DNA of 64,000 nucleotides from positions 372,001 through 436,000 of the forward strand of contig WTXA01000002.1 in NCBI GenBank assembly GCA_009773805.1. Direction: 5' to 3'. The position numbers and the translations under genes were made by a program. Below the pieces are notes generated by a model. That model was not told the DNA's origin. It did no database searches and saw only the letters and a list, made by a program, of their open reading frames with translations. Shown one piece after another: positions 6,589 to 12,672 of the stretch (positions within the stretch are counted from its first letter, which is position 1; every line of letters begins with the position of its first letter). The stretch is from Fusobacteriota bacterium. Its GTDB lineage: Bacteria > Bacillota > TC1.

Positions 6589-7125
6589 TTAATCAACATT
6601 TTCAGCATTTAAATAGATTTCATCTAACTCCTTCTTACTTATCAACTTCTTAAGCACCAATGCAATAATGATAATGCCAGGAATATTAATCAACAACCTC
6701 GCAGCAGCAAACCTCATACCAAGAGCTGAAGATTCATAAAGAAACATTGGAATCTTAGTAGTAGACCAAGCCCCGATAAAAATCAAAATATTACTAAAAC
6801 TAACACCCTTCTTCATAAAAACAGCAGCAATCGGAAAAGCCCCATAAAGAGGACCAGCTGCAGCCGAACCAACTACAAATGAAATAAGGACCCCAACAAA
6901 CCCAGAACCCTCACCCATATACTTAACCATAACATCTCTTGGAACCCAAACATCAAGAAGCCCTAGAATTATAAAAATTGGAGGAACTACAATAAAAACT
7001 TCCAAAAAGGAATTAGCGGCAATACCAAGAGCCTTAGTACCAATTTCATAATTAATCATAGTAAAAATCAACATTCCCACAAACATAATCAAAAAAGCTC
7101 TATACCTTAATACCAGTTTTTTCAT
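6589..7125 (-). CDS. permease, second half (UPF0718/DUF318-like)
   Basis: A 178-residue membrane protein with about five helices. GSAAAGPLYGAFPIAAVFMKKGVSFSNILIFIGAWSTTK resembles the pore repeat of ArsP/UPF0718 permeases (DUF318), which export organoarsenicals or other anions in characterised members. Together with the preceding gene it appears to make a two-subunit version of a protein that is usually one chain with duplicated halves. Its ATG overlaps the upstream half-gene by one base, so the two are translationally coupled. Confidence 0.7.
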   Translation of the reverse strand: MKKLVLRYRAFLIMFVGMLIFTMINYEIGTKALGIAANSFLEVFIVVPPIFIILGLLDVWVPRDVMVKYMGEGSGFVGVLISFVVGSAAAGPLYGAFPIAAVFMKKGVSFSNILIFIGAWSTTKIPMFLYESSALGMRFAAARLLINIPGIIIIALVLKKLISKKELDEIYLNAENVD

Positions 7126-7604
7126 TAATACACCACCAATCCAATAAACCCAGCCACAATAAACGAAAAAAGAAAAGCCAATATATTTCTAGCAATAGAA
7201 ACCTTGACTCCAAAATACTTAATCTCTAATGGAAGAGTAATAACCCCAACCATCATCAAAGTAGATACAAAAACTGCAATCTGAGCATAACCTGCACCAG
7301 CCTCTAAAAGAATAGCTGCAGTAGGGAAAGCTACAAATGGCGGAATCATAGTAATAGCTCCAAAAGCTGCTGCTAAAACTACACCAAAAATACCAGAATC
7401 AGCCCCTATGAACTTCGAAATCAAAGCAGCATTCATTAACGCCAACATCAACCCCACAATTAATAATACCACCAACAATTGAGGCAGAATATTTTCAAAG
7501 GCCTTCCAAGCCTTTAATAATCCTAACTTGGTCTTTTCCTTACTCTTTAATAAAGAGAAAAACAAAAAGACAACAGCAAAAATATAGAATACTATATTAT
7601 CCAT
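7125..7604 (-). CDS. permease, first half (UPF0718/DUF318-like)
   Basis: A 159-residue membrane protein with about four to five helices. Its repeat block GAITMIPPFVAFPTAAILLEAGAGYAQIAVFVSTLMM is the counterpart of GPLYGAFPIAAVFMKKG in the next gene, as expected of two homologous halves. The start codon directly abuts the stop of the ArsR-type regulator and its AGGAG lies inside that gene. Substrate is unknown; the regulator's paired cysteines suggest a metal or metalloid (inference). Confidence 0.7.
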   Translation of the reverse strand: MDNIVFYIFAVVFLFFSLLKSKEKTKLGLLKAWKAFENILPQLLVVLLIVGLMLALMNAALISKFIGADSGIFGVVLAAAFGAITMIPPFVAFPTAAILLEAGAGYAQIAVFVSTLMMVGVITLPLEIKYFGVKVSIARNILAFLFSFIVAGFIGLVVY

Positions 7605-7904
7605 CTATTCATCTCCTAAACTTTTGGTAATTTTCATGATTTCAGACTTGGCCTTCTCCCAGCCAGTTTCGTTAAGGCTATATCTACACCACTTACCAAC
7701 CCTTTTACAGTTTATCAATCCAGCCTCACCTAATATTTTCATATGATGAGACAGTGTAGACTGCCCAATATCAAGACTCACAAGGAGCTCACAACCACAT
7801 AACTCACCCTTATTCAACAATCTTAAAATATACAACCTGTTCTCATCACCGAGAGCTCGGAATATTTGACTTATCTCTATATTATCCAAATCAGAACCAC
7901 CCAT
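7605..7904 (-). CDS. ArsR/SmtB-family metal-responsive repressor
   Basis: A winged-helix repressor of about 100 residues. The helix-turn-helix is QSTLSHHMKILGEAGLINCKRVGKWCRYSL, and the preceding helix carries GELCGCELL, equivalent to the ELCVCDL thiol motif by which ArsR binds arsenite. An in-frame ATG at 7919 exists, but the ATG at 7904 lies 7-8 nt after GGTGG and is preferred. It is the first gene of an operon with two half-permeases, and a long inverted repeat covers its own promoter, so it is most likely autoregulated and released by a thiophilic metal(loid). Confidence 0.88.
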   Translation of the reverse strand: MGGSDLDNIEISQIFRALGDENRLYILRLLNKGELCGCELLVSLDIGQSTLSHHMKILGEAGLINCKRVGKWCRYSLNETGWEKAKSEIMKITKSLGDE

Positions 7905-7940
7905 TATATTCACCACCATTCATAACTTATCACTATTAAT

Positions 7941-8017: not shown

Positions 8018-9547
8018 CTATTTCTTCACTTTGTTAATATACTTGATATCACCCTTTATAAGTTTAATACCTTCCTCAGTAATAACAAAACGCTCTTCCA
8101 TTTTATCCTGAACCTTTTCTAAATAACCATCAATCAAAAGATTTGTTATAAGAGTATTTATTTCGCCCTCGGTCCATTCTTTCATAATACCAAAGACACT
8201 TAAGGTATTTAATCTCTTGTCCTTAATACGTTGATTAAGTTTACCCTTTAACATAATAGCTATAGTACCCTGTCCATAATAACCCTTAGTATGATAAATG
8301 GCCGATAGGATTTTCTGACCTTCCACGCTTTGATCCACCTCAACAATATTACTCAAACAATTACCACAATTACCACAAGGCTCTATTTTTTCACCAAAAT
8401 GATTTAATACAAACTGTCTATAACAATCCCTAGAATGAGCAAACCTAACCATTTCCTCTAGCCAATCTTGCTTTTCCCTAAGACGCCATTTAAAATAGAC
8501 CCTGGACTTTCCAAGAGCCTTATTTACCATAACATCCTTAAGACCAAAAAGTAGTATACACTCACACGGAAGACCATCTCTACCACCACGACCAATTTCC
8601 TGGTAATATGACTCCAAACTAGCAGGCATATTTAAATGTATAATGTACCTGATATTATCCTTATCAAGTCCCATACCAAATGCATTGGTTGCCACCAATA
8701 CCTGATATTTATCCGCAAAGAACTCTTCTTGGACCAGGTTTCTTTCCTTCTTAGTAAGGCCTGCGTGATAAAGACCCACCCTATAACTATCTTTTAAGAG
8801 TTTCTTGGCTAATCGTTCTGCATCTAGCCTAGTATTACAATAGACAATACCTAGAGCATTCACTTTTTTCTTTATAAATTTTAAAACAAAATCGGACTTG
8901 TCTTCATATAGTTTAACATCTATAAATAAATTGGGCCTATCAAAGGTAGTCTTGAATATAACCGGTTCCTTCAACTTAAGAAGCTTGGAGATATCATCAA
9001 TCACTCTTTCATTGGCAGTAGCTGTAAAGGCCGAAATAACCGGTCTAATAGGCAAGCTGTCTAAAGCCAAGGCTATCTTTTTATACTTAGGTCTAAAATC
9101 ATGCCCCCACTGGGAAATACAATGAGCCTCATCAACAGCAACATGATCAATCTTCAATGTTTTTATTACATCTACAAAATCCTCGGAGAAAAGCTTTTCT
9201 GGAGCAATGTAGATGACCTTGTACCGCTCCTCCTTGATTTCTTCAATTCTTTCTCTCATTTGTTTAGGTGTTAAATGACTATTGAGGGAAGTGGAAGGTA
9301 CACCTCTAGCATTAAAAGTATCAACTTGATCCTTCATTAAGGCAACAAGAGGAGATATGACAATAGTTAAATTATCAAAGAAAATTGCCGGTAATTGATA
9401 ACATAGGGACTTACCAGTTCCTGTAGGTAAAATCCCTATGATGTCTCTCTTATTTAAAATATTAGTTATAATTTCTTCCTGAGGCTCTCTAAAACAATCA
9501 TAAGCAAAGTAGCTTTTAAGAGCCTCCCTTAATTCTATTCTTTTAAT
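8018..9547 (-). CDS. recQ: RecQ-type ATP-dependent DNA helicase, apparent ATT start
   Basis: A 3'-5' helicase of recombination and replication repair. Reading from 9547 gives 509 residues with every RecQ motif: FREPQEEII (motif 0), PTGTGKS at 41-47 (Walker A), DEAH at 139-142, the HAGL and IGRGGRDG motifs, the zinc-binding C...CGNCGNC cluster and an RQC winged helix; no HRDC domain. The first ATG is residue 71, after Walker A, and there is no ATG, GTG or TTG between the upstream TAA and residue 71. An ATT at 9547 sits 7 nt after a perfect AAGGAG that overlaps the stop of the ATPase gene, so ATT initiation is the simplest reading. Not a broken gene by any other sign. Confidence 0.9.
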   Translation of the reverse strand: MKRIELREALKSYFAYDCFREPQEEIITNILNKRDIIGILPTGTGKSLCYQLPAIFFDNLTIVISPLVALMKDQVDTFNARGVPSTSLNSHLTPKQMRERIEEIKEERYKVIYIAPEKLFSEDFVDVIKTLKIDHVAVDEAHCISQWGHDFRPKYKKIALALDSLPIRPVISAFTATANERVIDDISKLLKLKEPVIFKTTFDRPNLFIDVKLYEDKSDFVLKFIKKKVNALGIVYCNTRLDAERLAKKLLKDSYRVGLYHAGLTKKERNLVQEEFFADKYQVLVATNAFGMGLDKDNIRYIIHLNMPASLESYYQEIGRGGRDGLPCECILLFGLKDVMVNKALGKSRVYFKWRLREKQDWLEEMVRFAHSRDCYRQFVLNHFGEKIEPCGNCGNCLSNIVEVDQSVEGQKILSAIYHTKGYYGQGTIAIMLKGKLNQRIKDKRLNTLSVFGIMKEWTEGEINTLITNLLIDGYLEKVQDKMEERFVITEEGIKLIKGDIKYINKVKK

Positions 9548-9551
9548 TTTT

Positions 9552-11678
9552 CTACTCCTTGTTTCTTATAAATTTTTCCTTTATCGAAACAATTATATCA
9601 CCGACACGTTTAGTAATTCTAAAACAATTAATAATAGTTAACAATGAAACAAATAAATCTATTCCTATAGCAACTATCAAGAATCCTGTCGAAACATCAT
9701 TAAACATAATATACACAAATATACCTAACTTAGTAAGTAAACTTAATATTATATTCTGTGTAATTATATTATAGGTTCTTTTGCCTAAGTGAATTGTTTT
9801 GTATATTAGATTAAGATCTTCCTTCATTAAAACAATATCAGCAATTTGAGTAACTCTATCTAAACTACCTTTTAAGAAGGCAAAGCTAACATCAGATGCG
9901 GCCATAACAATACCATCGCTAATAGTATCACCAACAAAAGCAACCGTCTTACCATTTAGCCTTTTTTGTTCTCTTTTTATTCTATTAACTTTATCTTCTA
10001 TATTTAACTCGCCATAGATATTAGAAATGTTTAATGGTGCAAGGACTTCAGAAGCACCTTGTTTTCTTTCACCTGTTAAAACTGATACTTTATCTATTTT
10101 TAATTGTTTTAACTTCTCTACAACTTCAACACCTTCAGGTTTTAAGCTTTCCTCTAAAGCTAGAGATCCAATATATTGACCATCAACACCAACGTGTATT
10201 TGAGTTCCTTTATAGTCGTTAATTACTTCAACTCCTTGTTCCTGTAGAAAGTCTTCTGTTCCAACTACTATAGTCTTGCCTCCATATAAAGCCATGGCAC
10301 CTTTGCCTCGTTCTTCACGATACTTTTCTAGAAGCTCAATATTTAGTTCTTTTGTCATTGCTTTTTTAACTGCGTTAGCAATAGGATGCTTTGCTTGAAG
10401 TTCTCCAATTGCAGCATAGGTTAGAATAAACTCTTCTTTGACATTCTTGTAAGGTAATATTTCTTTAACTTTGTATTCTCCAGTTGTCAAGATACCTGTT
10501 TTTGTGAAAAACAAAGTGCTTAATTTACCAATTGCATCTATAGAGCCTGTATGTTTTATCAATACCCCTAGTTTCTTTGCTAGACTAAAAGCAAAGTTGT
10601 AGGCAATAGGTGTAGATAGTAACATTGCCCAAGGACATGAAACTGCTAAAAGAATTAGTCCTTTGTAAATCAACTGAGATGGATTATCTGAAAAGAAGCT
10701 TAATAAGAAAAGTATCAAGGCTATTGCACCAACTACTTTAACGTATATACTACCAATGCTCGCGCTAGTCTTGGCAAATCCTTTTTTTAATTCCATAGCT
10801 TCTTCAGTCTTTGTTATTATTTCCTTTAAGAGTCCTTCATTATATCGTTTTAACACTAATAGCTTCAGTGGTTTTTCTATATTTACACCACCGCTTTTTA
10901 GTATGCTGCCAGGCACTACTTCTTCTTCAAAGTTTTCATTTGATACAGAAGACATATCTATTGTGGATTTACCTTCCAATACTTTTGAATAAAGTGGAAC
11001 AACCTCACCTGATCTTACAACTATAATATCTTCTTCTTTAATTTCTTTTATTGGTGTAGGAAGGACTACTTTTCCATTAAGCTTGTACACTAGTGTTTCT
11101 TCTTTGTGAAGTATATCAGAAACATCCTTCTTTGCTAGATTTGAAACTTTCCAACTTAAGTAGTCAGCTACTAGGTAAATAGCTAGGACAATTAATGCTT
11201 CTAAATAATCCTTAATAACAAATGCTCCTATTATTGCCAAGGCAATAAGTAAGGATTCATTTATTTTTCTTTCCACAATTACTGTGTTATATATCTTTTT
11301 TATTAGGACTATAGAACAAAGTAACAAGCCAATAAGATAACCTACCCACTTGTATTCTACAGGTATGTATTGGGTATAGCTAATTGCGTACATTACTAAT
11401 CCAAGTACAAATAGTAATACGTTTTTTTTATTTATTTTTTTGTCTATATTCAATGTTTTTTCAGATATATTAATAGTGTCGTCATAATTATGAATAACAT
11501 CAATTATATCCTTGGTTGCCATTTTCTCGTCAGCATCCTTGACAAAGGTAACTTTCAATTTTTGTTGAAAGCTATGATAGGTTACTTTTTCTATGTCTGG
11601 CAATAGATTGATATCTTCTATGGCCTTTTTTAGAATGCTGTCATTTTCTACATGGCTGATAAAGAAGTTTTTTACCAT
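9552..11678 (-). CDS. P1B-type ATPase homologue lacking the phosphorylation aspartate (pseudo-ATPase)
   Basis: At 708 residues with the helix plan of heavy-metal P-type ATPases, it is full length and uninterrupted. Yet the DKTGT motif reads TKTGI at 392-396 (the phosphorylated Asp is Thr), the membrane CPC motif reads CPW (348-350), actuator TGES reads SNEN (246-249), TGD reads TGE (535-537), and GDGxND reads GDTISD (583-588). The nucleotide-domain HP (431-432) remains. The N-terminal ferredoxin-like region has no CXXC. It is predicted to be unable to form the phospho-enzyme; a metal-sensing, scaffolding or subunit role is possible but unproven. recQ follows directly. Transcribed from an extended -10 promoter. 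Confidence 0.85.
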   Translation of the reverse strand: MVKNFFISHVENDSILKKAIEDINLLPDIEKVTYHSFQQKLKVTFVKDADEKMATKDIIDVIHNYDDTINISEKTLNIDKKINKKNVLLFVLGLVMYAISYTQYIPVEYKWVGYLIGLLLCSIVLIKKIYNTVIVERKINESLLIALAIIGAFVIKDYLEALIVLAIYLVADYLSWKVSNLAKKDVSDILHKEETLVYKLNGKVVLPTPIKEIKEEDIIVVRSGEVVPLYSKVLEGKSTIDMSSVSNENFEEEVVPGSILKSGGVNIEKPLKLLVLKRYNEGLLKEIITKTEEAMELKKGFAKTSASIGSIYVKVVGAIALILFLLSFFSDNPSQLIYKGLILLAVSCPWAMLLSTPIAYNFAFSLAKKLGVLIKHTGSIDAIGKLSTLFFTKTGILTTGEYKVKEILPYKNVKEEFILTYAAIGELQAKHPIANAVKKAMTKELNIELLEKYREERGKGAMALYGGKTIVVGTEDFLQEQGVEVINDYKGTQIHVGVDGQYIGSLALEESLKPEGVEVVEKLKQLKIDKVSVLTGERKQGASEVLAPLNISNIYGELNIEDKVNRIKREQKRLNGKTVAFVGDTISDGIVMAASDVSFAFLKGSLDRVTQIADIVLMKEDLNLIYKTIHLGKRTYNIITQNIILSLLTKLGIFVYIMFNDVSTGFLIVAIGIDLFVSLLTIINCFRITKRVGDIIVSIKEKFIRNKE

Positions 11679-11787: not shown

Positions 11788-12672
11788 ATGGTTCTTGAAC
11801 GTTATTTGTTAATATATAACAGAGCTTCGGGCTCAGATAATATAAATAGTCTTTTAACTGAGATTGTTCCTATTTATCAGGAACATGGTATTCTCTTGAC
11901 GCCTTTTTGCTTAAATATAGGTAGTAAGAATGATTTTTTACCTCTTTTGAAGAATGATGATTTTAGTGGTGTCTTGATTTCTGGTGGAGATGGATCTATT
12001 CGTTCTGTCATTAGTTTTCTATTAGATAATAGTATTGATTTGCCTATTGGTATCCTTCCTGCTGGTACTTGTAATGATTTAGCTAATAGTCTAGGTCTAC
12101 CAAGAAGTATCAAAGATGCGGCGCTAGTTCCATTAAAGGGTAAAAAGTTAGCTATTGATGTTGGTTTAATTAATGGTGAAAGTTACTTTTTCAGTAGTTG
12201 TGCAGGTGGTTATTTTATGCCTGCGACTTATGATACCCCATCAAGAGCAAAGAAGAATATTAAGCAGTTTGCCTACTATTTTAGAGCTGCTACTAGGTTT
12301 ACCTCTTTCAAGCCTTTTGACTTGACTGTTTCTATTGATGGTAATCTTCATAAGTTTAGTGCTATAATGTTTGCTATTGCTACTGGTTCACAGATTGCTG
12401 GTTTTAATAATATTCTAGATGAAGCTGAACTTACAGATGGTAAGCTAGATTTGTTTATTATTGATGATTGTTCCTATTTAGAGCTTCCAAATATTGTATT
12501 TAATATTTTTAGAGGTCAGTTTTCTAATCAAAAGCATGTAAGGTATTTTCAGGCTGAGTCTTTCTATATTGATGGACCTATGAATCTGCCTGTAGTCTTT
12601 GATGGTGAAAAGGGTGGAAGATTGCCTTTGTCAATTAGGGTTTCAAATAAGAGAGTTAGATTCTTTGTCTAA
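11788..12672 (+). CDS. diacylglycerol/lipid kinase family protein (DagK/YegS type)
   Basis: A soluble lipid kinase of 294 residues. The nucleotide-binding glycine motif ISGGDGSIRSVISFLL and the following GILPAGTCNDLANSLGLP are the family hallmarks, and the C-terminal beta-sandwich (DEAELTDGKLDLFIID) carries the EAxxxDGxLD motif. Members phosphorylate diacylglycerol or related lipids, recycling them into phosphatidic acid. It stands alone on the plus strand between divergent minus-strand genes and is followed 19 nt later by tRNA-Sec, with one terminator for both. Confidence 0.92.
   Translation: MVLERYLLIYNRASGSDNINSLLTEIVPIYQEHGILLTPFCLNIGSKNDFLPLLKNDDFSGVLISGGDGSIRSVISFLLDNSIDLPIGILPAGTCNDLANSLGLPRSIKDAALVPLKGKKLAIDVGLINGESYFFSSCAGGYFMPATYDTPSRAKKNIKQFAYYFRAATRFTSFKPFDLTVSIDGNLHKFSAIMFAIATGSQIAGFNNILDEAELTDGKLDLFIIDDCSYLELPNIVFNIFRGQFSNQKHVRYFQAESFYIDGPMNLPVVFDGEKGGRLPLSIRVSNKRVRFFV

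Follow-up and report, generated by a model that had tools for sequence, protein, structure and literature searches.

A conserved family of apparent pseudo-P1B-ATPases without the phosphorylated aspartate, limited so far to one bacterial family

A phosphorylated aspartate is the defining feature of P-type ATPases. In the window, by which we mean the whole stretch of 64,000 nucleotides analysed, the gene at 9552..11678 on the minus strand encodes a protein that resembles a heavy-metal pump of this superfamily and carries a threonine at the position of that aspartate. The locus raises the question of whether such a protein is a pump in decay, an enzyme with another chemistry or a protein kept for a different task. 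The ORF starts with ATG and has no internal stops, in agreement with the intact frame and the length of 708 aa given in a preliminary description of this DNA. The same description credited the gene with a good promoter; a promoter-like TTTATA-17-TATAAT with a TG upstream is indeed present, and the judgement of its quality goes beyond what a consensus match can say.

By descent and fold the protein belongs to the P-type ATPase superfamily, since Pfam, AF2 and Foldseek all place in it an E1-E2 actuator domain and a HAD-like P domain with an inserted N domain. The Pfam domains E1-E2_ATPase (5e-25) and Hydrolase (9e-16) both scored above their gathering cut-offs, and the NCBIfam model for heavy-metal P-type ATPases (TIGR01525) matched at 1.8e-98 with 330.8 bits, narrowly below its curated cut-off of 346.25. 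The top PDB sequence match was the zinc ATPase ZntA (4umv, 5e-53), with residues 142-691 aligned; in this alignment T392 lies opposite the aspartate of DKTGT and W350 opposite the second cysteine of CPC. From a shallow input alignment (24 rows, 19-29% identity) AF2 predicted a complete P1B fold with a mean pLDDT of 79 and a pTM of 0.67. The model contains the A, P and N domains in full, the transmembrane helices that one would expect and, at its N-terminus, a domain of beta-alpha-beta-beta-alpha-beta topology. The best Foldseek match of this model was ZntA in the E2.Pi state (4umw). The N-terminal domain (11454..11678, minus strand) has a predicted ferredoxin-like fold resembling that of HMA domains, which profile comparison over residues 18-70 matched at an E value of 9e-5 with a probability of only 59%. 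It has no CxxC in any of the six orthologues that we found, the positions of the two cysteines being occupied by N/S and I/V.

All five motif replacements listed in the preliminary description were found in the sequence, and the close relatives share them in the form TKTG[IV], [CS]PW, SNE, TGE and TISD; all lie on the minus strand. TKTGI (residues 392-396, 10491..10505) stands in place of the DKTGT phosphorylation motif, with threonine as the would-be acceptor in six of six orthologues. The codon at this position is ACA in the window, as had been reported, and ACA, ACT or ACG across the family; the use of three synonymous codons indicates that the residue is kept and not the codon. CPW (348-350, 10629..10637, within SCPW 347-350) replaces the transport motif CPC. 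Its PW is fixed and its first cysteine is serine in two orthologues, so that one metal-binding thiol is gone in all six proteins and both are gone in two. In the A domain TGES has become SNEN (246-249, 10932..10943), with SNE[NS] across the orthologues and the catalytic glutamate E248 retained. TGD has become TGE (535-537, 10068..10076) in 6/6, and GDGxND has become GDTISD (583-588, 9915..9932), or G[DEN]TISD in the family, where the Mg-binding position D584 varies between D, E and N and the last aspartate is fixed. T392, W350, S246-N247-E248, T535-G536-E537 and T585-I586-S587-D588 are thus invariant across the six orthologues, while the 38 canonical relatives aligned have an equally invariant Asp392, Cys350, Gly247, Asp537, Gly585 and Asn587. 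Altogether 31 positions are fixed in the six orthologues to a residue other than one conserved in at least 90% of the canonical relatives.

Other parts of the canonical machinery were retained. The HP of the nucleotide-binding domain (431-432, 10383..10388, minus strand) is present in 6/6 orthologues together with E426, G460 and G473, and G458 is kept in five and is asparagine in one; in P1B ATPases such E, H, P and G residues of the N domain bind ATP. KTG, K563, D588 and the actuator E248 are fixed as well. In the membrane part, K650 (9729..9731) and D674 (9657..9659) align with the conserved transmembrane Lys and Asp that, besides CPC, characterise the Zn/Cd (P1B-2, CadA/ZntA) ATPases, and form part of the Zn/Cd transport site there. 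Both are kept in 6/6, as are E141, E160, P349, N684 and R687. Fixed residues that are new to the family include some of surface type, such as Y410, K411, K414 and E415.

The genome from which the window comes (1.68 Mb, 98% complete) carries a single copy of this gene. Its other P-type ATPases, among them a canonical CadA-like paralogue with 30% identity, all have DKTG. Orthologues at 80, 79, 76, 62 and 50% identity were found in all four further genomes of the genus that the analysis covered and in one genome representing another genus of the family, and the family sample consequently consists of six genomes from two genera. None was found in the four genomes of the sister family of the same order. 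When a profile was searched against 398 genomes of the phylum, scores fell from 1197 bits for the most distant orthologue to 377 for the best canonical match. A DNA-level search of this phylum sample for the pattern F-T-K-T-G-x-[LIVMF]-T hit P-type ATPases only in the same six genomes. Ten further genomes matched the pattern in short or unrelated frames outside the P-type ATPases, one of them an ORF resembling queuine tRNA-ribosyltransferase, and a wider distribution was rejected on this ground. Viral contigs searched with the orthologue profile yielded no relative, and ten viral contigs that matched the motif pattern contained no P-type ATPase. To date, its members come from a single bacterial family.

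In a maximum-likelihood tree the six orthologues grouped in a single clade (99.8/100), whose stem measures 1.86 substitutions per site and whose crown branches are short, and this clade joined the Zn/Cd ATPases of the CadA/ZntA group by a long branch at 100/100. A long stem followed by a short crown fits a burst of sequence change and then constraint. Within the genus, pairwise NG86 estimates of dN/dS were 0.06-0.09, compared with 0.05-0.07 for the neighbouring recQ; the values are approximate because dS was near saturation, with one pair saturated at synonymous sites. They indicate that the fold, the length and the frame are held by strong purifying selection. We then asked where the constraint lies. 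The fraction of sites invariant in the same five genomes was 0.56 in the pseudo-pump against 0.37 in its canonical paralogue for the A domain, 0.54 against 0.29 for the N domain, 0.61 against 0.51 for the P domain and 0.45 against 0.49 for the membrane region (permutation p about 0.0002). Relative to the active paralogue, conservation is higher in all three cytoplasmic domains and not in the membrane region, which amounts to a shift of constraint. In the active paralogue the N domain is the least conserved of the four, and in the pseudo-pump it ranks with the better conserved ones.

The shared motifs and the low dN/dS refute recent decay, and the conserved pseudoenzyme proposed in the preliminary description withstood both comparisons. 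On this evidence the six genes represent what, judged from sequence, is a real and conserved family of pseudo-P1B-ATPases. Lacking the aspartate, the protein would form no phosphoenzyme and is most likely not a pump. The altered Mg-binding and dephosphorylation motifs, the missing thiolate pair of the transport site and the absent HMA cysteines point the same way, and we consider it very probable that the protein no longer pumps.

The surroundings of the gene are conserved as well. A divergent lipid kinase gene of the YegS/DagK type (11788..12672, plus strand), the pseudo-pump gene and recQ (8018..9547, minus strand) occur in this order in each of the six genomes; in genome G005 an additional gene separates the kinase from the pseudo-pump. 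The recQ gene lies directly downstream, as the preliminary description had it. The ribosome site of recQ, AAGGAG, lies within the 3' end of the pseudo-pump gene, which makes it probable that the two genes share one transcript with coupled translation; a shared function does not follow from this. At the recQ N-terminus no ATG, GTG or TTG fits, and the apparent start just behind the pseudo-pump stop is an ATT preceded by GGAG-TAG and overlapping the end of the upstream gene. The start region has ATT in G001, G003 and G004 also, TTG in G002 and GTG in G005, and translation from a rare start might keep the helicase at a low, regulated level. A damaged Walker A motif in RecQ was considered and rejected, the sequence being PTGTGKS. 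Beyond recQ lie an ArsR regulator and two separate half-permeases of the ArsP_1/Cu-Zn efflux type (6589-7919, minus strand), conserved in most of the genus and in the sister family. They were rejected as constant partners, being absent in G005, not found in the incomplete G002, and present in the sister family where the pseudo-pump is lacking. All five genomes of the genus also have a canonical CadA, located away from the pseudo-pump in an ArsR-HMA-CadA cluster. The active CadA of the genus (L047:7546-9687, about 615 aa) has no built-in HMA domain; this is encoded just upstream as a small protein of its own, behind the ArsR regulator. In G005 the canonical CadA (L143:3468-5147) is split over five reading frames, reflecting either a decayed pump or assembly errors; the pseudo-pump is intact there, and no second P1B relative with an uninterrupted frame was found in that genome.

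The role that we regard as most likely, with a probability of roughly one half, is that of a non-pumping membrane switch or scaffold that binds a nucleotide or another ligand. In the ancestor of the bacterial family, the chemistry of an ancient copy of a CadA/ZntA-type pump would have been lost, and the protein would since then have been kept in the membrane without pumping. With the pump cycle presumably unable to run, the cytoplasmic A, N and P domains, which have most of the ATP-pocket residues, may still bind nucleotide or another ligand, and this binding would cause a conformational shift that acts on a partner. In that case the protein would be anchored in the membrane as a switch or scaffold and would transport nothing. 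Retention of the nucleotide-pocket residues, together with the stronger constraint now lying on the cytoplasmic part, suggests such a ligand-responsive role. As a counterpoint, the fixed transport-site residues K650 and D674 may mean that some function in the membrane was kept, so that the role would not be purely cytoplasmic, and G458, a glycine that one would expect in the ATP pocket, is asparagine in one orthologue.

Several other explanations have to be set against this one. A recently decayed pseudogene or a sequencing error could account for the loss of several normally invariant motifs at once, but the results refute it: the gene is intact in two genera under a low dN/dS, its threonine is encoded by three codons, and its cytoplasmic domains change more slowly than those of the active paralogue. 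It is also very improbable, if slightly less so, that the protein is an enzyme of different chemistry, with threonine or a displaced residue as acceptor. KTG, K563, D588 and E248 would be available to such an enzyme; against it stand the D/E/N variation at the Mg ligand D584, the change of TGD to TGE and of TGES to SNE[NS], and the finding that substitution of the phosphorylated aspartate inactivates SERCA and the Na/K- and H/K-ATPases, stopping their phosphorylation (PMC13322241).

A purely structural scaffold, whose cytoplasmic domains dock partners with no ligand-driven switching, needs no ATP and accords with the conservation of the A, N and P domains and with the new fixed residues at 410, 411, 414 and 415. 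We find it possible but rather doubtful, as the HP, E and G residues of the nucleotide pocket stay fixed amid otherwise altered motifs. A passive, ATP-independent channel, carrier or binding protein for ions or metals, built on the P1B membrane domain, draws its main support from K650 and D674 and some from the other fixed membrane residues. It is somewhat less likely again, given that CPC has become [CS]PW with a bulky tryptophan fixed in the metal site, that the HMA cysteines are lost, and that, of all regions, only the membrane part does not exceed the active paralogue in conservation. The same cysteine losses weaken the metal sensor or chaperone put forward earlier. The suggestion of a regulatory membrane subunit, or of a dominant partner acting through hetero-oligomers with the active CadA-type pump of the cell, is favoured by the canonical CadA in all five genomes of the genus, by the origin of the pseudo-pump in the same ATPase group and by its intact fold. 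We nevertheless judge it unlikely. The gene lies outside the ArsR-HMA-CadA operon, and in G005 the only intact P1B relative found is the pseudoenzyme itself, a pattern that may be partly an assembly error; moreover, no P1B pump is known to require one. Equally unlikely, and more speculative than the switch or scaffold role preferred here, is the conversion of a P1B-ATPase into a membrane receptor. Such a receptor would sense nucleotides, transport nothing and control some process in the cytoplasm, perhaps one connected with RecQ, the helicase that is probably expressed together with it.

Compared with the Zn(II)/Cd(II)/Pb(II) P1B-2 ATPases CadA and ZntA (4umv/4umw), the pseudo-pump is alike in fold, length, A/P/N domain order, transmembrane helices, fixed K650 and D674, N-terminal HMA-like fold and place in the tree; it is unlike them in the lost phosphorylation aspartate and HMA CxxC and in its [CS]PW, SNE[NS], TGE and G[DEN]TISD motifs. 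For degenerate P-type folds the precedents come from eukaryotes. TMEM94/ERMA also combines a P-type fold with degenerate motifs, TGES being absent and GDGVND replaced (PMC12134183, PMC13322241). One study reported that it binds the ATP analogue AMPPCP with micromolar affinity and shows no ATPase activity (PMC12134183); pump function has been claimed as well (PMC13322241), and a role as a Mg pump is disputed. In contrast to the bacterial protein, TMEM94/ERMA still has an aspartate at the acceptor position (DKQGI), has ten transmembrane helices and is not of the P1B type. Apicomplexan guanylate cyclases have a P4-ATPase-like domain, and a degenerated P-type ATPase domain was reported in a signalling protein, Plasmodium GC-beta (PMC6592433); there, however, the domain is of P4 type and fused to a cyclase. 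KdpB of the KdpFABC potassium pump, a weak sequence match, is a P-type ATPase polypeptide inside a larger complex, but it is catalytically active and has DKTGT. The open-access literature searched contained no described bacterial family in which the aspartate was lost while the whole fold was kept under strong selection, and a search of it for a P-type ATPase pseudoenzyme returned nothing direct.

From a naturally dead pump one could learn which tasks are open to a P-type ATPase that does not pump, and since the loss is complete and common to six genomes it is directly testable in vitro. The family also warns against annotating such genes as metal exporters. If the receptor reading were true, these bacteria would provide a case of conversion from transporter to receptor within the P-type ATPases.
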